A stretch of 35,338 nt of DNA from Verrucomicrobiia bacterium (GTDB lineage Bacteria > Verrucomicrobiota > Verrucomicrobiia > Limisphaerales > JAOAIM01). The first letter of the stretch is position 1; each line of letters starts with the position of its first letter. Under the pieces are notes generated by a model that was given only the letters and a program-made list of their open reading frames with translations, did not search any database and was not told the origin of the DNA. Made by a program: the position numbers and the translations under genes. The stretch is from positions 1 through 35,338 of the forward strand of contig JAOAIM010000013.1 in assembly GCA_026414705.1 (NCBI GenBank), given 5' to 3'. Below are positions 2,830 to 32,519 of the stretch, one piece after another.

Positions 2830-4308
2830 TCAACGTTCAACCAGTTCTGGCGCGGCAGTGCGCTTTGACGCCGGACAAAGGCAACTGACGAACCAGCCGA
2901 TCAGCATCGTCACGCCGCAACCCACAACCCCATACCATAGAAAGGAAACCTTCGTGCGAAAGGCAATCGGCACCAGCACCAGCACGCCCACCAACCAGCC
3001 GGCAATCGCGCCGACGGTGTTGGCGCGGCGCACCAGAATGCCGAGCAAAAACAGCCCCAACAGCGGCCCGCCGACCAGGCCGATGGCCTTGTTGCTGGCT
3101 TCCAGCAGCGGTCCGAGCTTGCTCACCACGAACGCCAACCCGATCACCACCGCCCCGTAGCTGAACGTCAGCCATCGCGCCAGGCTCAATTCCACGCCCT
3201 CGGGGTCGGAAGACCTGCGCCAGCCGCGTTGATGGAAATCCACCAGCGTCGCCGTTGTCAGCGCATTGATGCCGGCCGAGATGGTGGACATGCTGGCCGC
3301 GAAAATGGCGGCAATCAACAGGCCCGGCATCCCGCGCGGCAGTTCGTTGATGACGAAGTAGGGCAGGATGTAGTCGGCCCGCTTGATGGCACCGGCCGCC
3401 AGCGGGTCGCCTTGGACGTGGTAAAACGCCCAGATGGCCAGACCGGTCACGTAAAACACGATCAACACCGGCAACAGCAGCCAGAGCTTCAACCACAGTG
3501 AGCGTTTGGCCTCCTGGATCGTGCGCGCCGTCAGGTAGCGCTGCACCGAAACCTGATCGGTCGCCATTTGCACCAGGTTGATCACCGCCCCGCCCAACAA
3601 CATCCCCCACAACGTCAGGCGCACATTGGGGTCGAGACTCAAGCTCACGTTGAATTTGCCCGCCTCGCGGCCCATTTCGATCATGGCGCTCGCGCCGCCG
3701 GGAACCTGCTTGAGCGCGATGAACATGATGACGAGTTGCCCGCCGAACAACACGAAGAACTGCATCACGTCGGTCCAGATCACCGCCTTCATCCCGCCCG
3801 CCGTCGTGTAGAGCGTCGTCAACGCGCCGGTGCAGAGGATGGTGAACCACAGCGGCAGCCCGGTGACCTGCTCCAACGCCAGCGCGGGCGCATACGTGGC
3901 CAGCGCCAGCCACAACAGCACGCGCAGGATGAACAGCGCCGAGGCCAGCAGCCGCACCTGCACCGAAAACCGCTCCTCCAAATACTGGTAGGCCGTGTAC
4001 ATCCGCGAGCGGTAGAACACCGGCATGAAGACCACGTTGGTGATCGGCGTGGCGATGAAAAAGCTGAAGAAAAACAGGAAAAAACCCACCCCATACGCAT
4101 ACACCTCCGCCGGGGCACCCAGATACGTGATGCCCGAGAAAATCGCCGCCAGGACCGAAATTGCCACCACCACCCGGCCCATGCTCCGGCCCGCCAGAAA
4201 AAAATCCCGCACCGTCCTCTGCTCCCTGGTGAAGAGCACACCGATGAGCACCGACGCGGCCAGATACGCCGCAAACAGTCCGTAATCCACCCACGAAAAC
4301 CGGGTCAT
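2830..4308 (-). CDS. SSS-family sodium:solute symporter
   Basis: 492 residues from the chosen ATG at 4308, which places M-T-R-F-S-W-V-D-Y at the start of the first helix; an in-frame start at 4368 would add 20 polar residues and is less likely. About thirteen hydrophobic helices are evident. Family marks include the helix-1 core near residues 55-70 (I-F-S-G-I-T-Y-L-G-A-P-A-E) and, late in the protein, A-A-S-M-S-T-I-S-A-G-I-N, which holds the Ser/Thr pair of the Na2 site. SSS proteins bring sugars, carboxylates, amino acids or vitamins across the inner membrane with Na+; the substrate cannot be read from sequence. Position between an HpcH/HpaI aldolase and a Gfo/Idh/MocA enzyme suggests a sugar or sugar acid. 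Gaps to both neighbours are about 120 bp, so co-transcription is possible but not shown. Confidence 0.92.
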   Translation of the reverse strand: MTRFSWVDYGLFAAYLAASVLIGVLFTREQRTVRDFFLAGRSMGRVVVAISVLAAIFSGITYLGAPAEVYAYGVGFFLFFFSFFIATPITNVVFMPVFYRSRMYTAYQYLEERFSVQVRLLASALFILRVLLWLALATYAPALALEQVTGLPLWFTILCTGALTTLYTTAGGMKAVIWTDVMQFFVLFGGQLVIMFIALKQVPGGASAMIEMGREAGKFNVSLSLDPNVRLTLWGMLLGGAVINLVQMATDQVSVQRYLTARTIQEAKRSLWLKLWLLLPVLIVFYVTGLAIWAFYHVQGDPLAAGAIKRADYILPYFVINELPRGMPGLLIAAIFAASMSTISAGINALTTATLVDFHQRGWRRSSDPEGVELSLARWLTFSYGAVVIGLAFVVSKLGPLLEASNKAIGLVGGPLLGLFLLGILVRRANTVGAIAGWLVGVLVLVPIAFRTKVSFLWYGVVGCGVTMLIGWFVSCLCPASKRTAAPELVER

Positions 4309-4425
4309 GTCGTTCGTTGTTCGAGCACGAGTTTCATTCAACGACGCGGTCGGGGCGTCGCCCCTCAACCGCGACAGGGCAGCACATGGTTTCCAGCCCG
4401 GAGGCCCGCGCGGGGCCGGTCGCGC

Positions 4426-5250
4426 TTAATCGTAAACTCCCACCGCGCCACGCCGCTTCCGACCCCGACCGGGCTGGCCCGACGCCGACTCAAATTCCGC
4501 CAGGCGCGCCCGGAAATACTCTCCGAGCGCCAGCACGTCTGCGCCCAGAGTGAAAATCCGGAACCCCTCGGCCTCGAGCACTGGCCGCGGCGCCATCGGC
4601 CCCGGGGCCATGAGGATTTTGCCGTGACGCCGCGCCGCTGCCGCCACGCGGCGTCGCGCCGCCACCACCTCCGGCGCGTTGAAATCACCCGGTTTGCCAA
4701 TCCGATGGCTGAAATCTCCCGGGCCGAAGAGCAGCACGTCAAAACCGGGCACTGCGGCGATGGCCTCGACGTTTTCGAGCGCTTCGGGAGATTCGATTTG
4801 AAAGATCAACAGGCGCTGGCGGTTGCTGTGCGCGATGTACCGGCTCACGGGCACCTGACAGTAACGGCCGTCCACGTTGCCACCGTCCATCGCGCGGCGG
4901 CCCAGCGGATGAAAGCGCGTCATTTGCACCACCGCGCGCGCCTCTTCGGCCGTGGTGACGTGCGGCACCATGATCGCCGTGGCGTCGGCCTCGAAGGGTT
5001 TGACGTAATCGCTGTAGCTGCCGCGCGCCACGCGCACGATCGTGTCCATGTCGAAGAGCTTGGCGGCCCGAATCTGGTTTTCCAGATTCACCCAGTCGTT
5101 GGGCACGTGCTCGTTGCACAGCCACACCGCCGAGGCGCCGGCCAGACCGCACAACTCCACCACGCGCGGGTCGTTGAGATTCAACTTGAAGCACACCGGG
5201 CGTCGGCCGGCCCGCAGCTCGCGCAAAATGCGACTGGCCCGCAAGGTCAT
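4426..5250 (-). CDS. HpcH/HpaI aldolase / citrate lyase family protein
   Basis: 274 residues, normal for this class II pyruvate-aldolase TIM barrel. Visible family features: F-K-L-N near residue 21; a M-V-P-H-V strand near 95 that corresponds to the substrate-binding segment; P-L-G-R-R-A around 116; and Q-I-E-S-P-E-A at about 150 with the metal-ligand Glu, followed by F-G-P-G-D-F-S with the metal-ligand Asp. Members cleave 2-keto-3-deoxy sugar acids or hydroxy-keto acids to pyruvate plus an aldehyde, using a divalent metal. The exact substrate is not predictable. The C-terminal 20 residues are basic and unstructured-looking. It is the first gene of a minus-strand run with a symporter and an oxidoreductase, and is transcribed away from the dGTPase gene, so the 155-bp gap at 5251-5405 should hold divergent promoters. 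Confidence 0.88.
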   Translation of the reverse strand: MTLRASRILRELRAGRRPVCFKLNLNDPRVVELCGLAGASAVWLCNEHVPNDWVNLENQIRAAKLFDMDTIVRVARGSYSDYVKPFEADATAIMVPHVTTAEEARAVVQMTRFHPLGRRAMDGGNVDGRYCQVPVSRYIAHSNRQRLLIFQIESPEALENVEAIAAVPGFDVLLFGPGDFSHRIGKPGDFNAPEVVAARRRVAAAARRHGKILMAPGPMAPRPVLEAEGFRIFTLGADVLALGEYFRARLAEFESASGQPGRGRKRRGAVGVYD

Positions 5251-5405
5251 GCGCGGACGTTAGCGAAGCGGCGCGGGCGGAAAAGTTTTTTCCTTGCGCC
5301 TCCGCTGCCAATTCGCATGGCCGGGACTGCGCGCGGGCGTCCGGGTCGCCCGTTGCGTTGCGTCGCGCGGTTGAGCCGCTCATACTGCGGCGGTTTTCGA
5401 TTTCC

Positions 5406-6557
5406 ATGCCGCGAACGCGACAGGAACTGGAGGAGCTGGAGCGGCGCACGCTCGCGCCGTATGCGCAGTTGAGCGCCGAGACGCGCGGGCGCACGCACCC
5501 CGAACCGCCGCCGGAATGGCGCACCGAATACCAGCGCGACCGCGAACGGATCATTCATTCCCGCGCGTTCCGCCGACTCGAATACAAAACTCAGGTCTTC
5601 CTCAATGGCACGGGGGACCATTTGCGCACGCGCCTGACCCACACGATGGAGGTCGCCTCGGTCGCCCGTGCCATCGCCCGCGCTCTGCGCCTGAACGAAG
5701 ACCTCACTGAAGCCATCGCGCTGGCGCACGATTTGGGACACTCGCCGTTTGGTCACCGGGGCGAGGCGGCGCTGGCCCGGCTCATGCGCGAGCACGGCGG
5801 CTTTGAGCACAATGGCCAAAGCCTCCGGATTGTGGAGGAGCTGGAGCAGACCTACCCGAATTTTCCGGGTCTGAATCTGACCTGGGAGGTGCGCGAAGGG
5901 CTGATGAAACATGGGGTGCCGGGCGACCATCCGTTGCGGCGGGCGGGGGTTGCAGCGCGCCACCCCTCGCTGGAAGCGCAGGTGGCCGACCTGGCCGACG
6001 AGATCGCCTACTACAGCCACGATCTGGACGACGGTCTGGGCGCGCGGCTGCTCTCGGAGGAGGACCTGACGCGGCGCGTTCGGGTCTGGGCGCGGGCCGC
6101 GCGGCGGGTGCAGCGGGAGCACGGCCGGTTGCCCGACGAGTGTCGCCGTTACTTCATCATTCGCACGATCACCGACAGTCAAATCCGCGACGTCGTCCAG
6201 ACCAGCGAAAAGCTCATTGAGCAGGCCGGGGTTCGCTCGGCCGACGAGGTGCGGCAGTGGCCGCGCCCCCTGGTGCAATACAGTCCCGAACGCCGACGCG
6301 AAAACCTCGAACTGCGCCGGTATTTGTATCGCAACCTGTATTTCAATCCGGAGGTCAGCGGGCCGAACACGCGCGCCGTGCGCGTGCTTGAAAAGCTTTT
6401 TGCCTTTTACCTCGAGCATCCCGAGCAGATGAGCCGGCAGGCGCGCCAACGGGTGCGGCGCGACGGCCTGCACCGGGCCGTGTGCGATTATCTGGCGGGG
6501 ATGACCGACCGCTACGTGATGCGCGAATACGAGCGGCTCTTCGGCACGGCGTTTTGA
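5406..6557 (+). CDS. dgt: Deoxyguanosinetriphosphate triphosphohydrolase-like protein (HD domain)
   Basis: 383 residues from ATG at 5406; an in-frame ATG at 5358 would add 16 residues not typical of the family. HD-phosphohydrolase metal ligands are present: H79 in R-L-T-H-T-M-E-V, the H108-D109 pair in H-D-L-G-H-S-P-F-G-H, and a later Asp in L-A-D-E-I-A-Y-Y-S-H-D. Further family motifs are R-A-F-R-R-L near 53-58 and G-F-E-H-N-G-Q-S near 132-139. Type-2 dGTPase-like proteins hydrolyse dNTPs to deoxynucleosides plus triphosphate in the cytoplasm and influence dNTP pools and replication fidelity. The length matches the short bacterial subfamily rather than E. coli Dgt. It is convergent with pilC, with 47 bp between the two stop codons. 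Confidence 0.95.
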   Translation: MPRTRQELEELERRTLAPYAQLSAETRGRTHPEPPPEWRTEYQRDRERIIHSRAFRRLEYKTQVFLNGTGDHLRTRLTHTMEVASVARAIARALRLNEDLTEAIALAHDLGHSPFGHRGEAALARLMREHGGFEHNGQSLRIVEELEQTYPNFPGLNLTWEVREGLMKHGVPGDHPLRRAGVAARHPSLEAQVADLADEIAYYSHDLDDGLGARLLSEEDLTRRVRVWARAARRVQREHGRLPDECRRYFIIRTITDSQIRDVVQTSEKLIEQAGVRSADEVRQWPRPLVQYSPERRRENLELRRYLYRNLYFNPEVSGPNTRAVRVLEKLFAFYLEHPEQMSRQARQRVRRDGLHRAVCDYLAGMTDRYVMREYERLFGTAF

Positions 6558-6604
6558 AGCGGCGCGAGGGCGTGTGCTGAGGCCGCGTTGCCGACGCCGT
6601 GCGC

Positions 6605-7813
6605 TCAACGTTTGCCGACGATTTCGGCCATCTTGAAGATCGGCAGGAACATGCAAATGACCATGCCGCCGATCACCACGCCCAGAAACACAATCAAGAT
6701 CGGTTCGATCAGTGAGGTCAGACCCGAAAGCGTGGTCTCAATTTCCTCGTCGAGGAAATCGGAGACGCGCTCGAGCATGTTGTCAATTTTGCCGGTCTGT
6801 TCTCCGGCGGTGATCATGCGGATGATCATGTTCGGAAAAATCGGATGCTTCCCCAGCGCCGCGGAAATGCTCTCGCCGCGCTCGATGTCCGAGGCGGCGA
6901 CCTTGATGGCCTTTTCCATGACGACGTTGCCGACGGTTTGAGAGACGATCTGCAAGACTTCCAGGATCGGCACGCCGCTGCGGATGAGCGACGCCAGCGT
7001 GCGGGTGAAGCGCGCCAGGCAAATCTTGTGCGCGATCGGCCCGAAGATCGGCAGTTTGATGCGGCGCGAGTCCCAGAACTCGCGGCCGGGCTTGGTTTTG
7101 ATGAAGTAAAGCCAGCCATAGACCGCACCGCCGCCGCCCAGAAGAATCAGCAGGATGTATTTCTTGACCGTCTCGCTGAGCTGAATCAGGAACAGCGTCG
7201 GCCCGGGTAATTTCGCTCCGAAGCCGGCATAAATTTCGCCGAACACCGGCACGACTTTCACCAGCAGGAAAATCGTGATCAACACCGCGACGATGCTGAC
7301 GATGGTCGGATACATCATCGCGGACTTGACCTTTTTGCGGAGGCGGGCGGCGTTTTCCAGGTAGGTCGCCAGCCGGGCGAGGATTTCCGCCAGCAGACCG
7401 CCCCGTTCGCCCGCGCTGACCATCGAGACGTAAAGCCGGCTGAACGCCTTGGGATGTTTTTGCAGCGCCTCCGAGAAGCTGTCGCCGCTTTCCACCCGCG
7501 CGCACACGTCCTTGATGATGTCGCGCATGACCTTGTTGGTGGTCTGCTCGGCCAGCGCCTGGAGCGATTGCACCATCGCCAGACCGGCGTCAATCATCGT
7601 CGCCAGTTGTCGGGTGAAAATGACCAGGTCGGCCAGACCCACCTTGCCCCCGCTGGTGCGGCCTTTTTTGCCGACCTTTTCCTGGATGGACACCACCAGC
7701 AGGTTGCGATTGAGCAGCGCCGCGATGGCAGCCTGTTCATTGGCGGCTTCAACGGTGCTGCGGATTTCGCGTCCGCTCCCGGCCTCGCGGGCCACATAGA
7801 CGAAGGATGGCAT
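6605..7813 (-). CDS. pilC: Type IV pilus / type II secretion inner-membrane platform protein (PilC/GspF)
   Basis: 402 residues, the usual length. Two T2SSF repeats are apparent: the first at about residues 65-190 (F-T-R-Q-L-A-T-M-I-D-A-G) and the second at about 268-395 (F-T-R-T-L-A-S-L-I-R-S-G-V-P). Hydrophobic helices lie near 165-190, 215-235 and 370-395. The N-terminal 60 residues match the cytoplasmic lead-in that begins M-P-S-F-V-Y. The protein anchors the assembly ATPase for pilin-like fibres or secretion pseudopili in the inner membrane. No pilB, pilT or gspD gene is visible nearby; a prepilin-type gene sits at 15564-16172 but belongs to a different operon. The start region faces the kinase gene at 8155 across a 341-bp gap. 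Confidence 0.95.
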   Translation of the reverse strand: MPSFVYVAREAGSGREIRSTVEAANEQAAIAALLNRNLLVVSIQEKVGKKGRTSGGKVGLADLVIFTRQLATMIDAGLAMVQSLQALAEQTTNKVMRDIIKDVCARVESGDSFSEALQKHPKAFSRLYVSMVSAGERGGLLAEILARLATYLENAARLRKKVKSAMMYPTIVSIVAVLITIFLLVKVVPVFGEIYAGFGAKLPGPTLFLIQLSETVKKYILLILLGGGGAVYGWLYFIKTKPGREFWDSRRIKLPIFGPIAHKICLARFTRTLASLIRSGVPILEVLQIVSQTVGNVVMEKAIKVAASDIERGESISAALGKHPIFPNMIIRMITAGEQTGKIDNMLERVSDFLDEEIETTLSGLTSLIEPILIVFLGVVIGGMVICMFLPIFKMAEIVGKR

Positions 7814-8154
7814 ACAGCTTTTTGCTCAACGTTGAGTTCCGTCCCCAGACCGCCTGGCCGCCTGCAGTCGGCCAAGGGTTTGGCAGCCACCCTACCAGCA
7901 GTCGTTGTTCCAGCGGCGCAATGTGTTCCACTCCCGCAACCTCTCCCCGCACAAATCTGCCACCGCCCATCGAGCCGGCGAGGGGCGACTGCCCAAACCT
8001 CGGACAATGCGACGTTGAAAAAGACACACTGGCAGGGTTCGTCGAGGCCCGTTTGCGCGCCGTCCCGATCCTGAACAGTGCTCGCTCCGGCACGGCCGAT
8101 GAGCGAGCGGGTTTCGGCTTGTCGGGGGTTCGATCCCCGATACATTCAAAGCTG
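7814..8154. other. Intergenic region between divergent pilC and the kinase gene
   Basis: 341 bp with no convincing gene on either strand. Plus-strand reading frames continue upstream from the kinase start, but the translation is low-complexity and unlike any family. The right-hand end holds a tRNA-T-arm-like hairpin, listed separately. Preceding it is a shorter stem at about 8071-8104 (CTCGCTC paired with GAGCGAG). Both promoters for pilC and the kinase gene presumably lie here, but I cannot identify their elements with confidence. Confidence 0.5.
8122..8140 (+). other. T-arm-like hairpin, possible tRNA/tmRNA remnant
   Basis: A six-base-pair stem TCGGGG/CCCCGA encloses GTTCGAT, very close to the T-arm of tRNAs and tmRNAs. 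The bases just before it (GTTTCGG) recall the segment preceding the T-arm in tmRNA. No D-arm, anticodon arm, tag-peptide frame or matching acceptor strand could be found upstream within tRNA distance, and no CCA follows. It could be a decayed 3' fragment of a tRNA/tmRNA gene, an old attachment site, or chance. The hairpin ends 14 bases before the kinase start codon. Confidence 0.3.
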
Positions 8155-9450
8155 ATGACGGCTTCGATGCCTTCCAACCCGCAGGCGCCCGCCGCTCCGG
8201 CGCCAACCCGCGAACGTTCTGCGGCATCCTCAAAACGCCGAGGCACCGTGCTGGTCGTGGACGACGAGGAGGGCGCGCGCCGGTCGCTGGAGGTCATTTT
8301 CAAGGACGACTACAACGTGCTGCTGGCGCCCGATGGCGCCACGGCGGTCGAGCTGGCCCAGCGCCACAAAATTGACGTGGCGGTGTGCGACATCCGCATG
8401 GCCGGCATGTCCGGCATCGAGGTGCTCGAACGGCTCAAATATGTGGACCCGCGCATCGAGGTCATCATGATGACCGCCTTCGAGACCGTTGAAACGATGC
8501 GCTCGGCGCTGCGGTTGCGCGCCTGTGATTACATCAACAAACCCTTCGATGTCGCCACGATGCGCGCCGCCGTGGCCAGCGCCATGCAGCGCCGCACCCT
8601 GGAGAGTGAAATTCACAACAACGCCGAAAAGCTCCAGGAATTGCTCGCCGAGCTTCAGAACCAGAAAATCAGCGAGCAGATCGCCCGCACCCGGGGCGAC
8701 ATCTACGCCAGCATCATTCACGACATCAACGGGCCGCTGACGGTCATCTCCGGCTTCATTCAACTGATGAACCAGCGGTTGGGCAGCGCCACGCGCCTGG
8801 AGGTCGAAGACCTCGAATTCATCAAAGACCGCCTCAAAATCATCACCCGCCAGGTCACCAACTGCATCGAAATCTCCCGCCGTTACCTGGGCTTTTTGCG
8901 GCGGCAGAACGACGAGTCGGCGCGCGTGGGCGTCAACCAGTTGCTCACCGACCTCGAACACCTGCTGCGCGTGCATCCGAGCCTGCAGAACAATCAGCTC
9001 CGCGTTCAACCCCTGGCGCGCGACGCCCACGTCAAGCTTCACGGCACCGACCTCATCCAGGTATTGCTCAATCTCGCCGTCAACGCCTTCCAATGCGCGC
9101 CCCACGGTTGCCAGGTGGACATCGGCGGCGAGGTGCTCGACCAACCGCTGAGCCTGACGACCTTCCGCGACGGGCCGGGCGAGCGCCTCCTCAACGTCGA
9201 AAGCTTCGAAAACCCCCCGCCGCTGGTGAAACTCTTCGTGCGCGACACCGGCCCCGGCATTCCACCGCACGTGCTTCCGAAAATTTTCGACCCTTACTTC
9301 ACCACCAAGGGGCCGCGACAGGGCACGGGCCTGGGGTTGAACATCGTTCAGCGCCTTGTCCGAAACGGGGGTGGAGCGCTCCACGTCAGCACCCAGTCGG
9401 GCAAGGGCACGACCTTCACCGTCTATCTGCCGGCCGCGCCGGCCGCCTGA
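8155..9450 (+). CDS. Receiver-histidine kinase (REC-HisKA-HATPase), soluble
   Basis: 431 residues from ATG at 8155; the frame is open further 5' but has no domain there, and this start sits about 30 residues ahead of the first receiver strand. Residues 31-145 are a receiver domain with acidic pair D36-D37, phospho-acceptor D79 and conserved K129. A helical linker (150-185) leads to a HisKA segment with H189 in I-I-H-D-I-N-G-P-L. The C-terminal HATPase domain shows an N-box (L-L-N-L-A-V-N-A), a G1 box (D-T-G-P-G-I-P) and a G2 box (G-T-G-L-G-L-N). No membrane helix or sensor domain is present, so it is probably a cytoplasmic relay kinase whose own receiver controls its activity. No partner is adjacent; orphan response regulators occur at 14024-14716 and 22596-22979. 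Confidence 0.93.
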   Translation: MTASMPSNPQAPAAPAPTRERSAASSKRRGTVLVVDDEEGARRSLEVIFKDDYNVLLAPDGATAVELAQRHKIDVAVCDIRMAGMSGIEVLERLKYVDPRIEVIMMTAFETVETMRSALRLRACDYINKPFDVATMRAAVASAMQRRTLESEIHNNAEKLQELLAELQNQKISEQIARTRGDIYASIIHDINGPLTVISGFIQLMNQRLGSATRLEVEDLEFIKDRLKIITRQVTNCIEISRRYLGFLRRQNDESARVGVNQLLTDLEHLLRVHPSLQNNQLRVQPLARDAHVKLHGTDLIQVLLNLAVNAFQCAPHGCQVDIGGEVLDQPLSLTTFRDGPGERLLNVESFENPPPLVKLFVRDTGPGIPPHVLPKIFDPYFTTKGPRQGTGLGLNIVQRLVRNGGGALHVSTQSGKGTTFTVYLPAAPAA

Positions 9451-9588
9451 GCGGACGCTTCAGCAAAAAAACCGGCGACCAGCCCGGGGCGCGGGCAATC
9501 GGCCCGGGGCAGTTTCGCTTCGACTCAAAAGCGCCATGGCGCAAAGGGTGTGAGCGTGGAGCGTCGGAGCGCTGATTGGAAATCTGTG

Positions 9589-9764
9589 GTGTCGCCGACC
9601 GGTGGTCGGCAGCCCAACCAACGCGGCGGCAGGCCGCCGCACTCCAAAACGCTGGCGCGTTGGCGGGGTGGCCCGGCGGGGACGAAGCCCTTGGAGTGCG
9701 CCAGCTTACTGGCGCTTTGCACGGCAGGAGGCTTTGCCAGTCAGCGAACGGAAAGCGGCGACAC
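9589..9764. repeat. 176-bp palindromic non-coding element (MITE-like)
   Basis: This lies in the 442-bp gene-free stretch 9451-9892 between convergent genes. Its ends are a 9-bp inverted repeat, GTGTCGCCG at 9589-9597 and CGGCGACAC at 9756-9764. A second nested pair is GCACTCCAA at 9639-9647 and TTGGAGTGC at 9691-9699. Smaller hairpins sit inside: GCCGACC/GGTCGGC at 9594-9610 and GCCAG/CTGGC at about 9699-9712. The nested symmetry suggests a foldable dispersed element without a coding frame. From general familiarity, similar intergenic sequences recur in Verrucomicrobia genomes; that is not proven here. Confidence 0.55.
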
Positions 9765-9777
9765 GAACCACACAAAA

Positions 9778-9814
9778 CTCTGAACTTTGAACCTTGAATT
9801 TTGAACTTTGAACA
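9778..9814. repeat. Short imperfect tandem repeat (TTTGAAC units)
   Basis: Four or five imperfect copies of a 7-9 bp unit (TGAACTT, TGAACCT, TGAATTT, TGAACTT, TGAAC) run in tandem just after the palindromic element. The run is AT-rich against a GC-rich background. Nothing indicates a coding or binding role. Together with the element before it, this fills the gap between the kinase gene and the PIN toxin gene; the remainder (9451-9588 and 9815-9892) holds nothing I can name. Confidence 0.6.
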
Positions 9815-9892
9815 GGAGCGCGCGGGGCGCGTGAAGCGTCAATGCGAGAGCGAGGTTCGGAGGAGCTTGAACCCGTGTGGGAAGTCCTCCGA

Positions 9893-25387: not shown

Positions 25388-26170
25388 TCAACCGGCGGGC
25401 AACCGCCGCACCCAACCCGCCGCGTCCAGCCCCGCCACAATCGGAAACCGATCCCGCTGCAAACAAAACGCCACGTCGTCCCGCAACTCCGGGTGCGCCA
25501 GCAACCGCCGCGCGTTGCGCGCCCGGCGCACCGTCCCGACCAGGTCCTCGCGTGCACCCGCATACGCCGCGCGCGCGATCTCCGCTGAATCCAGCAGTTC
25601 CAACCCCGGCAACGCCACGGCCAGCGCCGCGGCCAGTGCCCCGGCCAGCAACGTGTCCTCCAACGCCGCGCCCTCGCCCGTGCCGGCGCAAACCACCAGC
25701 ACCCGCGCTGTCTCGGCCAAACCGCCAAACCGCCCCTCCAACTCCGCGACCGTCGCCGAAACATTCAACCAGGAGGCGACCAACACGCCCGACGCGCCCG
25801 CGCACGCGCGCAGCGCGCCCGTGCCGTTGGTCGTCGTTGAAACAATCAGCCGTCCCGCCACCCGCTCCGAGGTGAATTCGCGCGGCGAGTTGCCCAGGTC
25901 AAACTCCACCCCGCCGGTCAGGGCCGCGCCGATGCGCCGGCCCTCCCGCTCACCTGCCAGCAGCACGTCGGGCCGCCGGGCGCGCTGCTCCAGCGCCTCG
26001 GCGATGCTCGCCACCGGCACGACCGCTTCGGCCCCGTGCGCCAGCGCCGTCACAAACGCGCTGCTGGCCCGCAACACGTCCACCACCACGCACACCGTCC
26101 CGGTCAGATCGCCCGCTGACAACGCGCGCCACTCCGCCGGACTGAACAACACTTCAAGGGTCGGGTTCAT
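25388..26170 (-). CDS. comB: 2-phosphosulfolactate phosphatase
   Basis: 260 residues from ATG at 26170. Family motifs are V-V-V-D-V-L-R-A-S-S near residue 30, G-E-R-E-G-R-R-I near 74-81, G-N-S-P-R-E-F near 93-99, and S-T-T-T-N-G-T-G-A near 110-118. ComB removes phosphate from 2-phosphosulfolactate with Mg2+ to give sulfolactate, known from coenzyme M synthesis in methanogens and sulfolactate formation in bacteria. The other genes of the route are not in the window. The start ATG overlaps the stop of the DNA glycosylase gene (ATGA), so both are co-translated, with no obvious functional link. Confidence 0.93.
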   Translation of the reverse strand: MNPTLEVLFSPAEWRALSAGDLTGTVCVVVDVLRASSAFVTALAHGAEAVVPVASIAEALEQRARRPDVLLAGEREGRRIGAALTGGVEFDLGNSPREFTSERVAGRLIVSTTTNGTGALRACAGASGVLVASWLNVSATVAELEGRFGGLAETARVLVVCAGTGEGAALEDTLLAGALAAALAVALPGLELLDSAEIARAAYAGAREDLVGTVRRARNARRLLAHPELRDDVAFCLQRDRFPIVAGLDAAGWVRRLPAG

Positions 26171-27102
26171 CTTGCACCTCCCGGGCAGGGCGCCCGACCG
26201 GATGCGCGGCCGGCGCCGGTTCGCATGAAGTGAAACAAATACTGTTGGGCATAACCCGCGTGCGGGCCGAAATGCGTTTCCACAAACGCCCGCAGCGCCG
26301 CCGGGCGCACGCGTTGACGCGGAAAATACCACTCCCGCAACGCCCGCTGCACCCACACGTCGAGCGGAAACGCCCGCTCAAAACCCAGCGCGAACAACAG
26401 CACGCAATCGGCAATCTTCGCGCCCACGCCCGGCAGTTCACACAGGCGCGCCCGCGCCGCCTCCAGTCCCAGCGCGCTGAGGGCCGCCGGATCAAAGCGC
26501 CCGTCGGCCACGCGCCGCGCGGTCTCCAGCAGATACGGCGCGCGGAATCCCATCCCGCACGCGCGCAACGCCCGGGCGTTCAGGCGCGCGATCCGTTCCG
26601 CCGTCGGAAACGCATAGGCGGGTCGCTCGCCCGGCGGCACCGCCACCGGTTCGCCGAAGCGTTCGCACAACCGCTCCACGATCTGTCGGATATGTCCGAT
26701 CCGTTTCGTCGAGGAAAGGATGAACGAGGCCAGGCATTCCCAGGGCTCCTGACGCAGCAGGCGCAGGCCATAACAGGCGCGCACCGCCGCGCGCAGCGGC
26801 GGGTCGGGCGGAAACGTCGCCAGCACGGCGTCCAGGTCCACGGCCACCTGCAAGTAATCCGCCAGCCAGTGCCAATGCCGCAGCGGCAGCGCGGCCTCGG
26901 CCCCAATGCCGTCCGAAGTCTGCCGCAGTCGCACCCAGCAGCCGCGCACCACGCCGGTCCAGCTTCCGTCCGGCCCCGCGCGCCAGCGGAACGCCTGACC
27001 CGAATCCAGCGTCGCGGCCAGGTCGTAGCCGCGCACCGCAAAGTGCGTCCTCGGCACCGGGCCGTGCTGCGCCGGCGGCTCAACGCAGATTCCGACACTC
27101 AT
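26167..27102 (-). CDS. 8-oxoguanine DNA glycosylase (OGG1 family)
   Basis: 311 residues. The N-terminal part has D-S-G-Q-A-F-R-W near 33-40, a hallmark of OGG1-type enzymes. The helix-hairpin-helix follows as L-P-G-V-G-A-K-I-A-D-C with catalytic K229, and the essential Asp is D248 in F-P-L-D-V-W-V-Q-R. This is a bifunctional glycosylase/lyase removing oxidised guanine paired with C. The OGG1 asparagine motif that contacts the estranged cytosine is altered: where S-S-N-N-N is usual, it has S-S-T-K-R at 130-134. The 3' end overlaps comB by 4 bases. The 5' end overlaps the PAP2-GT39 gene by 23 bases, so all three genes probably share a transcript. Confidence 0.92.
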   Translation of the reverse strand: MSVGICVEPPAQHGPVPRTHFAVRGYDLAATLDSGQAFRWRAGPDGSWTGVVRGCWVRLRQTSDGIGAEAALPLRHWHWLADYLQVAVDLDAVLATFPPDPPLRAAVRACYGLRLLRQEPWECLASFILSSTKRIGHIRQIVERLCERFGEPVAVPPGERPAYAFPTAERIARLNARALRACGMGFRAPYLLETARRVADGRFDPAALSALGLEAARARLCELPGVGAKIADCVLLFALGFERAFPLDVWVQRALREWYFPRQRVRPAALRAFVETHFGPHAGYAQQYLFHFMRTGAGRASGRAPCPGGAR

Positions 27103-29302
27103 AGACCTGAATCGTGCGCAGCACGCGACCCCGATCCCGAACTTCGCGCAGCCCCAGGTCCGTCACGCTTTCAAACTCCGCCAGCAACACCGGCGGCGGC
27201 GGTTCGGGACGTTTGTTTTCCTCGACGTAGATCGCGTTTTGGCCTTTGCGATCGCGGTAACCCGGCCAGTAAAAGAACTGGTTCACCGGGCGCGGGGAGG
27301 TGCGATAAAACACCAGCGGATCGTGCGGCACCCGTGCCCTGGCCTCCGGCAAATAGAACGTGATCTGGCTCGTGATGCCGTAATGACCGCCGATGATGAA
27401 CACGGGTTTGCCCTCGCCCTGCAACCGCGCCCGTTCCTCGCCGACCAGGCGCGCCAGTTCCGACCAGCCGCGCACCCGCCGCAGCGGGTCGAGCCGCGCC
27501 GGCAGCGGGCGGCCCGCGAGTTTCTCAATCCATTTGCTCTCATGCGCCAGAACCACGGCGGTCAGCCCCAGCATCAATCCCGCCACAAACCAGGGTTTGA
27601 CAAACCGCGCGCCAGCGCGCGCCCGCGCCTCCCAGTAAATCACCGCCATGCAGCAGAGCGGCGGCACGGCAGCGGCGATCCAGTTCGGCTGCACGCGCGC
27701 ATACAACGTCCAGAGCAGATACACGGCAAACAACGGCGCGCCCATGCTGAAAAAAAACACCAGGCGCGGGTCGTTGCGATGCGTTCGCCACCACAGCACC
27801 GCGGCTGCGAGGATGCCCGCGAAGAACACCGGGTTGAGCAGCGCCGCCTCGGCACCCAGGAATCCAAGCAGTTGGCCGGGAACGTCCGCCAGCCGCCACG
27901 CCCGGCCCAGTTGCGCGTTGTCGGCCACGTGCGCGGCGGTGATCCAGCCGTGCTGCGCGTTCCAGATCACCACCGGCAACGCGCACACCGCGTTGACCAG
28001 CAACGCCAGATACGGACCGGGCCGACGCAAATGCACGCGCGCCGGCGGCCATAACACGAACAACACGGCCCAGCAGAGCCATTGGAGCAGCGCGGTGTAT
28101 TTGCTCAGAAAGGCCAGGCCCGACCACCAACCCACCCACAACCACGCGCCCACGCCGGCTTCGGGGCGAATCGCCCGCCAGCCCGCCAACATCGCCGCCG
28201 TCCAGAACAACACCAGCAACGGGTCCACCGTCATCAAGACCGCCCCCGCCGCCAGCAACGGCATGGCGGTGACCATCACCACCAGCGCCACGCCCGCGCG
28301 CGCGTTGACCTCCCGCGCGAAAAACCGCAACAACAGCACGCTCAGCACCGCAGAAATCAACGGCGAGAAAAATCGCACGCCAAACTCGGTGTCGCCCCAC
28401 AGGTGCGTGCCGAGCCATTGCGCGTAGGCAATCATCGGCGGCTTGCTGAAATACGACAACGCCGGGCGCTTCGACCAGAGCCATTGATACGCCTCGTCTT
28501 CGCTCAGTTGCATCGTGCCGCTGGCCAGATAAGCCCACCGCGCCAGCAACACGGCGGCAATGAACAGATAACCGGCGCGCAACCAGTGATCGTCGGTCGC
28601 CGACGGCCTCGCGTGCGGAACAGTTTCAGAACCCTGCGGTTGGCCATCGCCCACCGTTTTTTCCGCGGCAGGCACGATCGAGGGCAGTTTTTCCCACCAG
28701 AGCGGAAACCAGCGTTTGCCAATCGCGCTCCAGGCGGTTTGCAGCGCCACGACGCCGGCAACGGCGTAGCCGGCGCCCAGAATCGCCCCCGCCAGCACGT
28801 CGCTCGGATAATGCACCCCGTTGTAAACCCGCGAGAAACCCACCGCCGCCGCCAGCGGAATCGTCACGCGCGCACTGCGCCGAAAAAACAGCCAGCCGAT
28901 CATCGCGCCCGCGAACCAGTTCGCCGCGTGCGAGGAGGGCATGCTGGCGTGCCGCCCGCCGTGATTGGCTGGCAGGCGCGTTTCCGGCAGGGTCTGGAAC
29001 GGACGGGGGCGTCCGATGGCGGCCTTGAGCGGCCGGCAAATGTAGGAATCGCCCAGCGGCAAAATGATCACCAGCGTGAGCACGCACAGCGCCCCGCGCA
29101 GCCGGTAACGCCAGATCAGCCACGCCGCCCCCGCCAACAGCAGCGGCACAAACAGCGGATTGCCGCTCAGCCACGGCATGAGCCGGTCGAAAAGCGGATT
29201 GGCTGTTCCCTGGTTGATCAGCCGAAACAGCGCCGTGTCCAACGCCAGCAGCGATTGCACGAGCGGCAATGTAAACGGCGCACCCGACCCGGAAAAACTC
29301 AA
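27080..29302 (-). CDS. PAP2 phosphatase-glycosyltransferase 39 fusion membrane protein
   Basis: 740 residues. The first 200 residues are a PAP2-type lipid phosphatase: K93-x-x-x-x-R98-P, the P-S-S-H set at 122-125, and S-R158-V-Y-N-G-V-H164-Y-P-S-D168, all catalytic residues present, with about five or six helices. A polar linker (205-238) precedes a GT39/ArnT-like multi-helix transferase: L-S-E-D-E-A-Y (267-272) with the acidic pair, then Y-F-S-K-P-P-M-I-A-Y, followed by roughly ten helices and a soluble C-terminal domain of about 160 residues. PAP2 enzymes recycle polyprenyl pyrophosphates or phospholipids, and GT39 enzymes move sugars from polyprenyl-phosphate carriers, so one protein may couple lipid-carrier recycling with glycosylation. 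Domain fusion is visible in one uninterrupted frame. Overlaps the DNA glycosylase gene by 23 bases. Confidence 0.93.
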   Translation of the reverse strand: MSFSGSGAPFTLPLVQSLLALDTALFRLINQGTANPLFDRLMPWLSGNPLFVPLLLAGAAWLIWRYRLRGALCVLTLVIILPLGDSYICRPLKAAIGRPRPFQTLPETRLPANHGGRHASMPSSHAANWFAGAMIGWLFFRRSARVTIPLAAAVGFSRVYNGVHYPSDVLAGAILGAGYAVAGVVALQTAWSAIGKRWFPLWWEKLPSIVPAAEKTVGDGQPQGSETVPHARPSATDDHWLRAGYLFIAAVLLARWAYLASGTMQLSEDEAYQWLWSKRPALSYFSKPPMIAYAQWLGTHLWGDTEFGVRFFSPLISAVLSVLLLRFFAREVNARAGVALVVMVTAMPLLAAGAVLMTVDPLLVLFWTAAMLAGWRAIRPEAGVGAWLWVGWWSGLAFLSKYTALLQWLCWAVLFVLWPPARVHLRRPGPYLALLVNAVCALPVVIWNAQHGWITAAHVADNAQLGRAWRLADVPGQLLGFLGAEAALLNPVFFAGILAAAVLWWRTHRNDPRLVFFFSMGAPLFAVYLLWTLYARVQPNWIAAAVPPLCCMAVIYWEARARAGARFVKPWFVAGLMLGLTAVVLAHESKWIEKLAGRPLPARLDPLRRVRGWSELARLVGEERARLQGEGKPVFIIGGHYGITSQITFYLPEARARVPHDPLVFYRTSPRPVNQFFYWPGYRDRKGQNAIYVEENKRPEPPPPVLLAEFESVTDLGLREVRDRGRVLRTIQVYECRNLR

Positions 29303-29518: not shown

Positions 29519-29656
29519 CTACGCCGCTTGTGCCGCCTCCGCCGCCAGGTCGTTGCGCCGCTGCGCCATGCTCTTGAAAAATTCGTAGCCCTCCCGCAAC
29601 CGCCGCACGCACACGTCGCAATCTTCCAAGGCGGTGTCGGGCGAGCGGTTTTCCGC
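29519..29656 (-). pseudogene. Headless second copy of the hpnJ 3' end
   Basis: Read on the minus strand, this translates to 45 codons ending in TAG at 29519-29521, with the sequence L-E-D-C-D-V-C-V-R-R-L-R-E-G-Y then F-F-K-S-M-A-Q-R-R-N-D-L-A. It matches the last 40 residues of HpnJ, with only R-to-C and T-to-A changes in the shared part. There is no start codon and no upstream HpnJ sequence: it follows directly, in frame, after the TAA of the small gene at 29657. Nucleotide identity is about 96% over 29521-29617 and then falls abruptly, while protein similarity continues for about ten codons through synonymous changes. It is therefore a truncated relic or the target-site end of a duplication, not a functional gene. 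Confidence 0.85.
29521..29617. repeat. Direct repeat, copy 1 (partner at 31058-31154)
   Basis: 97 bp matching 31058-31154 in the same orientation, offset 1537 bp, with four mismatches (29527, 29543, 29564, 29612). The two copies bracket the parA-like gene and the small downstream gene. Homology starts precisely at the hpnJ stop codon on one side and fades after about 97 bp on the other. Confidence 0.9.
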
Positions 29657-30064
29657 TTATTTTTCTGGCTCGCTAAAATGCGCCGGCTCGAGGCTCGGCA
29701 AGGGATACTTGGCCGATAGCTGCTCCTCCTCTCGAATTCGCGCGAGAAGTTGTTCCCGAATGCCCGCTTTGCCGTGGCGCAGATCAATCGGCAGATGATT
29801 CACGGCGCAGAACAGTGCGAGGTCGGATTTCGGGCGGGCGAGCAACTCATCCAGCTTTTGCGTCGTTCGGCCTTGCGCGTATTCCCTGCGAATCTCGGCA
29901 TAGAGGGTTCGCGCCTCTTCCACGGACAATTTCTGAGGTCGTGACCGCCCGACGGGCTTGACAGCGGTGCTCGTGAGGGTTGCCTCAATGCGTTCCAGCG
30001 CCCGCCGAAGCAACCGCACCTCTTCAAGCACGGTTTCCAAAATTTTTTGCTCTTCGGTGCTCAC
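29657..30064 (-). CDS. Small coiled-coil protein of unknown function, coupled to parA-like gene
   Basis: 135 residues from GTG at 30064, which overlaps the ParA stop by 4 bases (GTGA); the frame is open further upstream only because it shadows parA. The first 35 residues (S-T-E-E-Q-K-I-L-E-T-V-L-E-E-V) form a strong heptad-like helix. A basic linker P-V-G-R-S-R-P-Q-K precedes a second, mixed region with A-R-T-L-Y-A-E-I-R-R-E-Y and K-S-D-L-A-L-F-C-A-V-N-H-L-P-I-D. I do not recognise a family. Its place right after a ParA ATPase is where a ParB-like or cargo-adaptor partner is often found, but no ParB or helix-turn-helix motif is visible. Base composition is less GC-rich than the flanking genes. 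Confidence 0.8.
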   Translation of the reverse strand: MSTEEQKILETVLEEVRLLRRALERIEATLTSTAVKPVGRSRPQKLSVEEARTLYAEIRREYAQGRTTQKLDELLARPKSDLALFCAVNHLPIDLRHGKAGIREQLLARIREEEQLSAKYPLPSLEPAHFSEPEK

Positions 30065-31059
30065 ACGATGGTCTCGATTTCTTTGAACAGCTTCTCGAAA
30101 TCGCCGGTATAACGCTGCGCCCAACCGCCGTAGTGGATGGCGCGCTTTACGTCCACCCGATCCGGGATGAAGGTGTTGAGCCAAAACACTCGGGCGCCCC
30201 GGGTCTGCCATTCCTCGCAAACGGCTTTGCACCGCTCGATGTAGAGGCGCGTTTCACGAAACAGCCCCGTGTTGGGTCGCCATCCCGCTTTGTTCATGAA
30301 CACGCCCACGGTCGGCAACGGAAAGGGTTCAATGCGCAGCTTCAAATGATGCAAAATCAGGTTCAATCCACGGGCTGCGTAAAAATCGGGATTGACCGGC
30401 ACCAGAATGAGCTTGCATGTCGCCAGCGTGGAATACGACAGCACGGAGAAATTCGGCGGGCAGTCGAAAAATACGTATTTGTATTTGGGCATCCGGGGCG
30501 CGTTGGCGATTTTGCCCAGCAAGTCTCGGATGAAATGCTTCACTCGATCGCGCTCGAAAACTTCCAGCTCAAACCAGTAGAACTCCTCCGATGAGGGAAT
30601 GAAGTCGAGGTTCTTGCCGTCCACGTGAAAGATGAAGTCGTGCTTGATGGGAAAATCAAAATACGCGCCCTTTTGAGGACTGGTGTAAATCTCAAGCGCG
30701 TGAAAGAGTGTTCGCTTGTTCTGAACCGCCTTTTCATACCACTCGCCCAACGGCGTTAACCCGCCTGTGTCGGGTTTCAACGCCACCGCCTGCGTGAGGC
30801 TCATCTGCGCGTCCAGGTCAAAAAGCAGCGTCGGATAGTTCATCGTGGCGGCAGACACGTTTGCAAGGCACCAGGTCACAGTGGTCTTTCCGACACCGCC
30901 CTTAAAATTGATGGTGGCGACCGTAGTGGCTTGCACACGCGAAGTTTTGCTGAGGCCCGTGACGTTTGCGAGAGTAAACTCGGTGCGTTTGCCGGGGCCG
31001 CCGGGTTCAAATCCTTCCGGCGCATGAGAGCGGATGTTCGCGCTTTTGGGATCAGTCAC
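30061..31059 (-). CDS. ParA/MinD-type ATPase coupled to hpnJ
   Basis: 332 residues from GTG at 31059, overlapping the hpnJ stop (GTGA). A disordered N terminus of about 42 residues precedes the deviant Walker A K-G-G-V-G-K-T-T at 53-60 with both lysines, then L-F-D-L-D-A-Q near 80 (Walker A') and Y-V-F-F-D-C-P-P near 195 (Walker B). ParA ATPases dimerise on ATP, bind DNA or membrane, and position plasmids, chromosomes, chemoreceptors or other cargo. No parS site or ParB gene is visible, which argues against a plasmid partition system, and a MinD-like amphipathic C-terminal helix is not obvious. The gene is in the 50-55% GC range by eye in several lines, against about 70% around it, suggesting acquisition. 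It lies between two direct repeats of the hpnJ 3' end. Confidence 0.9.
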   Translation of the reverse strand: MTDPKSANIRSHAPEGFEPGGPGKRTEFTLANVTGLSKTSRVQATTVATINFKGGVGKTTVTWCLANVSAATMNYPTLLFDLDAQMSLTQAVALKPDTGGLTPLGEWYEKAVQNKRTLFHALEIYTSPQKGAYFDFPIKHDFIFHVDGKNLDFIPSSEEFYWFELEVFERDRVKHFIRDLLGKIANAPRMPKYKYVFFDCPPNFSVLSYSTLATCKLILVPVNPDFYAARGLNLILHHLKLRIEPFPLPTVGVFMNKAGWRPNTGLFRETRLYIERCKAVCEEWQTRGARVFWLNTFIPDRVDVKRAIHYGGWAQRYTGDFEKLFKEIETIV

Positions 31060-32519
31060 GCCGTTTGTGCCGCCTCCGCTGCCAGGTCGTTGCGCCGCTG
31101 GGCCATGCTCTTGAAAAATTCGTAGCCCTCCCGCAACCGCCGCACGCAGACGTCCCGGTCCTCCAGCATCGTCTTGAGAATCCGCAGAATCGGCTTCGGA
31201 CGCAGGTAGTAGGCGTGATAGAATCGCTCTACCGCCTCGAAAATTTCATCCTTTTTCAACTCCGGGTATTCGAGCGCGGCGTCCTGGAAGCCGTCTTCGT
31301 GGACGATGTCGGTCTTGTCCTGCTTGGCGAACCAGCCGTTGAGGCGCGCCTGCTCGTAAAGTTCGGTGCCCGGATACGGCGCGGCCAGCGACACCTGAAT
31401 GCTGAAAACATCCAACTCCTGGGCGAACCGGATGGTCTGCTCGATCGTCTCGCGCGTTTCCACCGGCAGACCCAGGATGAACGTGCCGTGAATCACCACG
31501 CCGGCCTTGTGGCACGCCTGCGTGAAGCGCCGCATCTCATCGGTCGTGACGCCCTTCTTAATGCGCCGGAGAATTTCGTCGTTCCCGCTTTCGTAGCCGA
31601 CCAGAAACAGCCGCAGCCCGTTGTCCTTGAAGAATCGGATCGTGTCGTAGTCCAGGTTCGCGCGGCTGTTGCAGCTCCAGGTCAGGCCCAGCGGGCCGAG
31701 TTTTTTCGCGATCTCCCGCGCGCGCGGCAGGTTCGCCGTGAAGGTGTCGTCGTCGAAGAAAAACTCCTTCACCTGCGGGAAGAGCCGCTGCATGTAGGCC
31801 ATTTCGTCGGCGACGTTTTGCGGGGAGCGCACGCGGTATTTGTGGCCGCCGATGGTCTGCGGCCAGAGGCAGAAGGTGCACTGCGCCGGGCAACCGCGCC
31901 CGGTGTAGAGGCTCACGTAGGGATGGAGCAGGTAGCCGATGAAGTAGCGCTCGATTTGCAGGTCGCGCTTGTAAACGTCCGCCACCCACGGCAGCGCATC
32001 CATGTCGGCGATCAACTCGCGCTCCGGGTTGTGGCGGATGCGCCCGTCGGCGTCCTTGTAGGAGAGCCCGGCGATGGTTTCGAGCGGGCGGCCTTCGGCG
32101 ACCTCCTTGCAGGTGAAGTCGAATTCCTTGCGCCCGACCCAGTCAATCGCCCACGACGCCTTGAGCGTTTCGGTGGGCAACACGGCGGCGTGCGCGCCGA
32201 CAAAGCCGATTTTCGTCGCGGGCTTTTGTGCCTTGATCGCCTCGGCCACCTTGCAGTCGTTGCGCAGCGAGGGCGTGGAGGTGTGGATGATGACGTGATC
32301 GAAATCGCGGGCGATGCGGAGGCACTCGGTCAGGCCGATGCCGTGCGGCGGGCAATCCAACAGGCGCGAATCGGGCACAAGCGCCGCCGGTTGCGCCAGC
32401 CAGGTCGGATACCAGAAACTGGTCACCTCCCGCCGGGCCTGGTAACGCGACCCGGCCCCGCCGTCAAAACCCTCAAACGAGGGCGGATTCAAAAACAAGG
32501 CGCTCATCGGTGTGCTCAT
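31056..32519 (-). CDS. hpnJ: Hopanoid biosynthesis radical SAM protein HpnJ
   Basis: 487 residues from ATG at 32519; ATG at 32507 gives M-S-A-L-F-L-N-P-P-S-F and fits the family N terminus better. The N-terminal third is the cobalamin-binding-type domain (F-E-G-F-D-G-G-A-G-S-R-Y, W-Y-P-T-W-L-A-Q-P). The radical SAM triad is C210-x3-C214-x2-C217 in G-R-G-C-P-A-Q-C-T-F-C. These strings match HpnJ closely in memory, including F-F-F-D-D-D-T-F and L-A-A-P-Y-P-G-T. HpnJ acts late in bacteriohopanepolyol maturation; work in Burkholderia linked HpnJ with HpnI and HpnK to bacteriohopanetetrol cyclitol ether formation. No shc, hpnH, hpnI or hpnK is in the window. It leads a GTGA-overlapped run with the ParA-like and coiled-coil genes. 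Confidence 0.93.
   Translation of the reverse strand: MSTPMSALFLNPPSFEGFDGGAGSRYQARREVTSFWYPTWLAQPAALVPDSRLLDCPPHGIGLTECLRIARDFDHVIIHTSTPSLRNDCKVAEAIKAQKPATKIGFVGAHAAVLPTETLKASWAIDWVGRKEFDFTCKEVAEGRPLETIAGLSYKDADGRIRHNPERELIADMDALPWVADVYKRDLQIERYFIGYLLHPYVSLYTGRGCPAQCTFCLWPQTIGGHKYRVRSPQNVADEMAYMQRLFPQVKEFFFDDDTFTANLPRAREIAKKLGPLGLTWSCNSRANLDYDTIRFFKDNGLRLFLVGYESGNDEILRRIKKGVTTDEMRRFTQACHKAGVVIHGTFILGLPVETRETIEQTIRFAQELDVFSIQVSLAAPYPGTELYEQARLNGWFAKQDKTDIVHEDGFQDAALEYPELKKDEIFEAVERFYHAYYLRPKPILRILKTMLEDRDVCVRRLREGYEFFKSMAQRRNDLAAEAAQTA
31058..31154. repeat. Direct repeat, copy 2, within the hpnJ 3' end
   Basis: The final 97 bp of the intact hpnJ gene; its relic copy is at 29521-29617 in the same orientation. 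Beyond 31154 similarity is seen only at the protein level for about ten codons. See the pseudogene entry for how the copies differ. Confidence 0.9.

Follow-up and report, generated by a model that had tools for sequence, protein, structure and literature searches.

Introduction

Prophage e14 integrates site-specifically at the 3' end of icd and carries a replacement for that gene end. The way in which small genes for restriction and defence move when they lack an integrase is a question of long standing, for which the main clue has been long direct repeats of neighbouring gene ends, and restriction-modification genes are known to insert with long target duplication (Nobusato 2000; Furuta 2010, as cited in PMC3031569 and PMC1643837). 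Here we describe a locus in a 35,338-nucleotide stretch of DNA from a Verrucomicrobiia bacterium (contig JAOAIM010000013.1; the whole stretch is called the window), where two genes encoding a ParA-type ATPase and a small coiled-coil partner lie between the intact 3' end of the hopanoid gene hpnJ and a headless second copy of that end. This bracket may have arisen by homologous recombination with DNA that came from a related lineage and brought an hpnJ end of its own together with the two genes, an explanation that we hold with about even confidence.

Results

Duplicated hpnJ ends bracket a two-gene insert

The locus is read from the minus strand, on which hpnJ is followed by parA, the partner gene, the relic, the PAP2/GT gene and then ogg; the features that form the bracket are as follows (aa, amino acids).

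31056-32519, minus strand: hpnJ, the intact resident gene, 487 aa; TIGR03471, E=1e-230, 766 bits
31058-31154 (97-bp core; extended, 31058-31165), minus strand: repeat copy 1, the intact hpnJ 3' end
30937-31057, minus strand: leader from the hpnJ stop to the likely parA start, an in-frame extension without counterpart in homologues
30061-30936, minus strand: parA, ParA-type ATPase, 291 aa; AAA_31, E=3e-26
29657-30064, minus strand: small partner gene, 135 aa, with a 4-bp overlap with the parA stop
29629-29656, minus strand: spacer of 28 bp from the partner stop to the relic, in sequence an illegitimate-looking downstream junction
29519-29628 (core 29521-29617, extended to 29628), minus strand: repeat copy 2, the hpnJ relic, headless and ended by a TAG stop of its own; tblastn, E=1e-12

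The two copies of the 97-bp core differ by 4 mismatches and can be extended without gaps to 108 bp at 92.6% identity, and they form the only direct repeat in the whole window that reaches 60 bp and 85% identity. The relic starts 1,537 bp from the start of the intact copy, downstream of hpnJ, and translates as LEDCDVCVRRLREGYEFFKSMAQRRNDLAAEAAQAA*, while the intact gene encodes a true HpnJ by NCBIfam (TIGR03471 cut-off 578 bits), with a radical SAM match and a weak B12-binding match in profile searches. Homology between the copies ceases inside the stop codon (TGA versus TAG). The initial annotation, which had reported the repeats, the pairing of a real hpnJ 3' end with a headless relic that has its own stop, and the edge of homology at the hpnJ stop codon, was therefore borne out. 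It had overstated the similarity further on, where it described protein but not nucleotide sequence as shared for about ten codons; beyond the core the only matching residues are L-E-D and one T.

The 1.44-kb insert (29618-31057), which separates the relic from the hpnJ stop, encodes only ParA and its partner, with no integrase or recombinase, as the initial annotation had noted. Its GC content of 0.564 is the lowest of the 1.4-kb windows (rank 0 of 340; mean, 0.646), and the values for parA and the partner gene alone (0.548 and 0.583) likewise confirm the earlier remark that both are lower in GC. A longer ParA open reading frame (30061-31059), the start of which overlaps the hpnJ stop, had also been put forward, but this probably has the wrong start since the starts of homologues align with the GTG at 30936, which gives a protein of 291 aa and a leader of ~120 bp after hpnJ.

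ParA shows the two marks of ParA-type ATPases, membership of the AAA_31/CbiA fold family and a deviant Walker A motif (KGGxGK[ST]), with the sequence FKGGVGKTT invariant in 29 homologues, and its nearest solved structures are Soj/ParA (PDB 6iub, 8jmj). An AlphaFold2 model of the partner was all helical (mean pLDDT, 88.6), with helices at residues 3-32, 48-63, 69-76, 79-88 and 99-119 that form a long N-terminal coiled-coil helix and, beyond a linker, a C-terminal domain of helices. Some partner homologues weakly match SAP (best E=1.6e-5) and Rho_N profiles; a fold search with the partner model returned nothing significant and profile searches gave no ParB match. With PADLOC models, ParA and partner gave only matches with E above 0.001, which places neither in a known anti-phage defence system.

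Divergence between the copies is mainly synonymous

Codon comparison of the two window copies gave 7 synonymous changes (stop change included) and 2 nonsynonymous changes (P=0.002), and the ratio was 14:7 for the copies at L096 (P=2e-4 against neutral decay) and 38:11 for those in G148 (P=7e-14), two loci described below; these P values assume that all change was neutral and would be weakened by synonymous change in the resident copy, that of the window most of all. Because the differences are mainly synonymous and not spread over all codon positions, both copies look, from their sequences, to have been functional once, in separate histories.

This pattern bears on a long target duplication, in which the target, the hpnJ end, would have been copied as the module inserted into it. 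Fresh copies of this kind should be identical and then decay without codon bias, whereas the observed differences are mostly synonymous (a weak point for the window alone); furthermore, random target edges need not coincide with a stop codon, and the window contains no nuclease. In favour of such an insertion are the long flanking direct repeats of variable length (97-108 bp in the window, 584 bp at L096), the restriction-type cargo in G148 and L096, and the restriction genes that adjoin the ParA module at several other loci. Taken together, we think this origin unlikely.

The ParA-partner pair occurs in many phyla

We defined the module as a ParA of 285-304 aa followed by an overlapping or abutting gene of 107-209 aa with a coiled coil. 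A scan of genome contigs gave 62 loci in many phyla, with ParA mostly 40-53% identical, and the small partner gene overlaps or abuts parA in nearly all of 61 loci, the window included. Neighbouring genes are otherwise not common between loci, except that restriction-type genes recur: GmrSD_N immediately after the partner in L054, L065 and L096, REase-ARP/PD-(D/E)XK in L055 and L089, Eco57I in L050, Mrr_N in L048 and HARE-HTH in L105. A literature search brought up no paper that describes such an association of ParA with restriction genes. From these neighbours, the module in the window would probably serve in ParA-driven positioning, or in accessory work, for a nearby restriction or defence effector that is absent here.

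The ParA tree intermixes phyla. In addition, L086, L089 and L094 have nearly identical ParA in assemblies labelled Chloroflexota, Nitrospirota and Bacteroidota, reflecting either very recent cross-phylum transfer or mis-binned contigs. Within the order of the window, module ParA is present in 2 of 320 genomes; the other copy, in G123, has the same proteins as Pedosphaera RYN_629 (L065), a match by which the order would be Pedosphaerales, and is not close to the window ParA in the tree. In 29 relatives, the 1.5 kb around hpnJ contained neither parA nor the partner. Likewise, there were no module relatives among 2.9 million viral contigs, phage and plasmid matches were restricted to distant ParA proteins (the closest plasmid ParA being ~26-28% identical), and no partner homologue was found on plasmids. 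Judged by sequence comparison, the ParA-partner pair is a horizontally moving unit that was acquired in the window genome, since it is rare in the order, absent behind hpnJ in relatives and low in GC, with a ParA tree that mixes phyla. An alternative offered in the initial annotation, the collapse of a tandem hpnJ-parA unit, is not supported, as hpnJ-parA occurs in no relative.

An independent bracket at L096

The initial annotation had also proposed looking for the same two-gene module at other gene ends, and one such case was found at L096, a locus of a 5.7-Mb single-chromosome gammaproteobacterial record. Here (3389-9879) the 3' end of a DAO/GcvT gene is followed by parA, partner and GmrSD_N, and then by a headless same-strand duplicate of the DAO/GcvT end (584 bp at 95.9% and 144 bp at 95.8% identity) with its own stop. 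Homology again ends at the stop codon, and L096 is an independent case of the layout seen in the window. A further 160-bp duplicated piece lies upstream (1838-1997 = 5086-5245).

L096 also bears on whether the window locus could be an artefact of assembly or binning. The window comes from a draft metagenome assembly of 390 contigs that is 90% complete; none-the-less, a single 35-kb contig contains hpnJ, parA, partner and relic in its interior, no sequence that could cause a mis-join is shared at the downstream junction, and the parallel layout stands in a single-chromosome record, so that we regard an artefact as highly improbable.

Flanking duplications among 57 testable module loci were clear in the window and L096, and possible in L088 (Ignavibacteria), where a duplicated 3' end (3851-3999 and 8120-8268) flanks the ParA module. 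By eye the L088 repeat resembles a common secretion-tail coding end, and it may be coincidental, an ordinary dispersed sorting domain.

A site-specific integrative element that enters at gene 3' ends and carries a replacement end, in the manner of e14 at icd, would leave the host gene intact with homology ending at the stop codon, its replacement ends would differ mostly synonymously, and the same module does lie behind the 3' ends of two unrelated genes in two phyla. However, the insert has no integrase, the target ends of hpnJ and DAO/GcvT are not homologous, and the varying relic lengths do not define a fixed attachment core. Moreover, the duplicated gene end is absent at most module loci, and the viral contigs hold no relatives, and by this analogy such an element seems very unlikely. 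The idea in the initial annotation that the module entered at a gene 3' end is strengthened by the independent L096 parallel, while the classical site-specific form of that idea fits poorly with the missing integrase, the variable relics and the scarcity of clear brackets.

Other hpnJ relics and transfer of hpnJ in the order

hpnJ was found in 118 of 196 genomes of the order. Using the last 59 HpnJ residues as a query against the 320 genomes, we detected further same-strand headless relics downstream of hpnJ, so that relic lengths are 108 bp in the window and 289, 207 and ~1000 bp in three other genomes. In G142 the 289-bp relic lies 12.7 kb downstream, with large sensor kinases in between, and its homology ends at the stop codon. 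The 207-bp relic of G024, 9.8 kb downstream, adjoins a methyltransferase and a GmrSD-type gene; compared with its congener G075, G024 has a specific insertion (L112:9929-15169) of an amino-acid permease, the hpnJ relic, a DNA methyltransferase and a GmrSD/NsnA-like gene. The relic of G148 (~1 kb) lies 3.7 kb downstream, with a type II restriction enzyme and methyltransferase between it and the intact hpnJ (L113:3888-5606). This relic (L113:5600-6964) is broken by short insertions of a ~67-bp repeated element (6010-6076 and 6359-6425; 83% identical), and more hpnJ bits occur ~8 kb downstream (L044:16086-16289). In G186 the relic is on a separate contig and adjoins the same dprA-recQ genes as that of G148, within paaX-dprA-recQ (L114:4882-9400), and this shared setting is either an old shared relic site or a former hpnJ position.

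These genomes bear on the main rival explanation, in which hpnJ was first duplicated in tandem and a later insertion of the module between the two genes removed the head of the second. Such a decapitated copy predicts the same codon pattern as an import, and synonymous divergence fits two once-functional paralogues; likewise, the second hpnJ fragment of G148 is long (~310 codons, 90-97% in parts) and accompanied by further bits, and G293 has two full hpnJ matches. The G293 copies are, however, on separate draft contigs and two adjacent intact hpnJ genes were seen in no genome, and this route needs two events, both of which must be repeated at a different gene to explain L096. We consider it rather unlikely.

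In congener pairs the sequence upstream of hpnJ is mostly alignable, whereas downstream most pairs have nothing in common, with synteny resuming further downstream in G024/G075 and G158/G123. hpnJ itself has moved between lineages, since the hpnJ tree groups G000 with G156 (100/100) and the rpoB tree groups G156 with G192 (100/99). The window genome and G156, which belongs to another family, are 94% identical in hpnJ and 82% in rpoB, and these sequence comparisons indicate recent transfer of hpnJ between the two families. Examined as a mosaic with G156, the window hpnJ showed similarity falling toward its 3' end, with no clear breakpoint.

Genes beyond the relic

Two further genes follow the relic.

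27080-29302, minus strand: PAP2/PMT_2 (PAP2/GT) gene; PAP2 and PMT_2 profiles
26167-27102, minus strand: ogg, DNA glycosylase

The PAP2/PMT_2 gene is present in 190 of 313 genomes, with ogg adjacent in most loci examined, and across the order the two (26167-29302) are widely conserved side by side, with nothing obvious to link their functions; they are old chromosomal neighbours. In none of the relatives' loci is hpnJ upstream of the PAP2/GT gene, and these loci give no empty site.

Discussion

We favour import of DNA bearing its own gene end because of the synonymous pattern together with homology that ends at the stop codon, the latter seen in the window, G142 and L096 and expected where orthologous coding ends are followed by unrelated downstream DNA. 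It is further favoured by the downstream flanks of hpnJ, which differ in most congener pairs, by the movement of hpnJ itself between lineages and by the parallel brackets at L096 and in G148, G142 and G024. The two-gene unit, ParA and its coiled-coil/SAP-like partner, would have arrived on related-lineage DNA with its own hpnJ 3' end, and recombination would have been anchored in hpnJ on one side with an illegitimate junction on the other. The product would be an intact hpnJ, the unit starting from the hpnJ stop codon, and a headless hpnJ end of 97-108 bp placed before the old PAP2/GT-ogg genes. The route of recombination, the choice of the foreign copy and the function of the module are the inferred parts of this account.

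Several observations weigh against it. The 97-bp core differs in only 5 codons (4 synonymous, stop included, and 1 not), and the 7:2 count for the window rests on nine codons and takes in an edge possibly at chance level. The relic is nearest to the window's own hpnJ (92.6%), with G156 next (87.8%), which leaves room for a duplication within the lineage. Clear bracketing repeats occur at only 2 of the 57 testable module loci, and the same loci contain 13 non-bracketing repeats, so that the bracket count alone is not strong statistics and the shared details carry the argument. Likewise, a 5'-end control showed the excess of 3' over 5' fragments of hpnJ in the order to be modest, and hpnJ is joined to the ParA-partner module in no other genome, with neither a donor nor an empty site found among the genomes compared, of which this one is the sole member of its genus and family.

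A broader and rather doubtful proposal sees in the pair, whether or not a nuclease follows it, a mobile unit of defence type, so far undescribed, which crosses phyla without a recombinase and lands just behind stop codons, with a duplicated gene end as its footprint and hpnJ as a recurrent landing place of the pair or its kin in the order.

For the movement of small integrase-free genes, these results add a two-gene ParA unit that crosses phyla, with two independent brackets at unrelated genes, and hpnJ as a gene whose 3' side was invaded several times. The divergence pattern speaks for recombination with related DNA rather than for plain target duplication, and the finding of this arrangement at an unrelated gene of another phylum is a hint that such genes enter genomes recurrently by an integrase-free route. 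Furthermore, the association of ParA, partner and nuclease suggests a putative role of ParA ATPases in restriction-type defence.

Of the systems to which the proteins may be compared, McdAB carboxysome positioning likewise pairs a ParA-type ATPase (McdA is among the weaker PDB matches) with an adjacent gene for a small coiled-coil partner; here, however, no carboxysome genes were recognised among annotated neighbours and partner homologues have a SAP/Rho_N-like C-terminal domain. ParA/Soj partition ATPases of the AAA_31 family share the deviant Walker A (KGGVGKT) and are the best profile matches, but the present partner gave no ParB match, and this is a chromosomal stand-alone pair with plasmid homologues at only ~26-28% identity. 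With regard to the bracket itself, e14 at icd also leaves the host gene intact and its old 3' end as a headless relic, unlike which the layout described here has no recombinase, no fixed attachment core and target genes that are not homologous. Finally, the bracket differs from long target duplication by restriction-modification genes in that its copies diverge mainly at synonymous sites and end at stop codons, and in that the window insert is ParA and partner only, while the two are alike in an integrase-free insert, in long direct repeats of variable length and, at L096 and G148, in restriction-type cargo.

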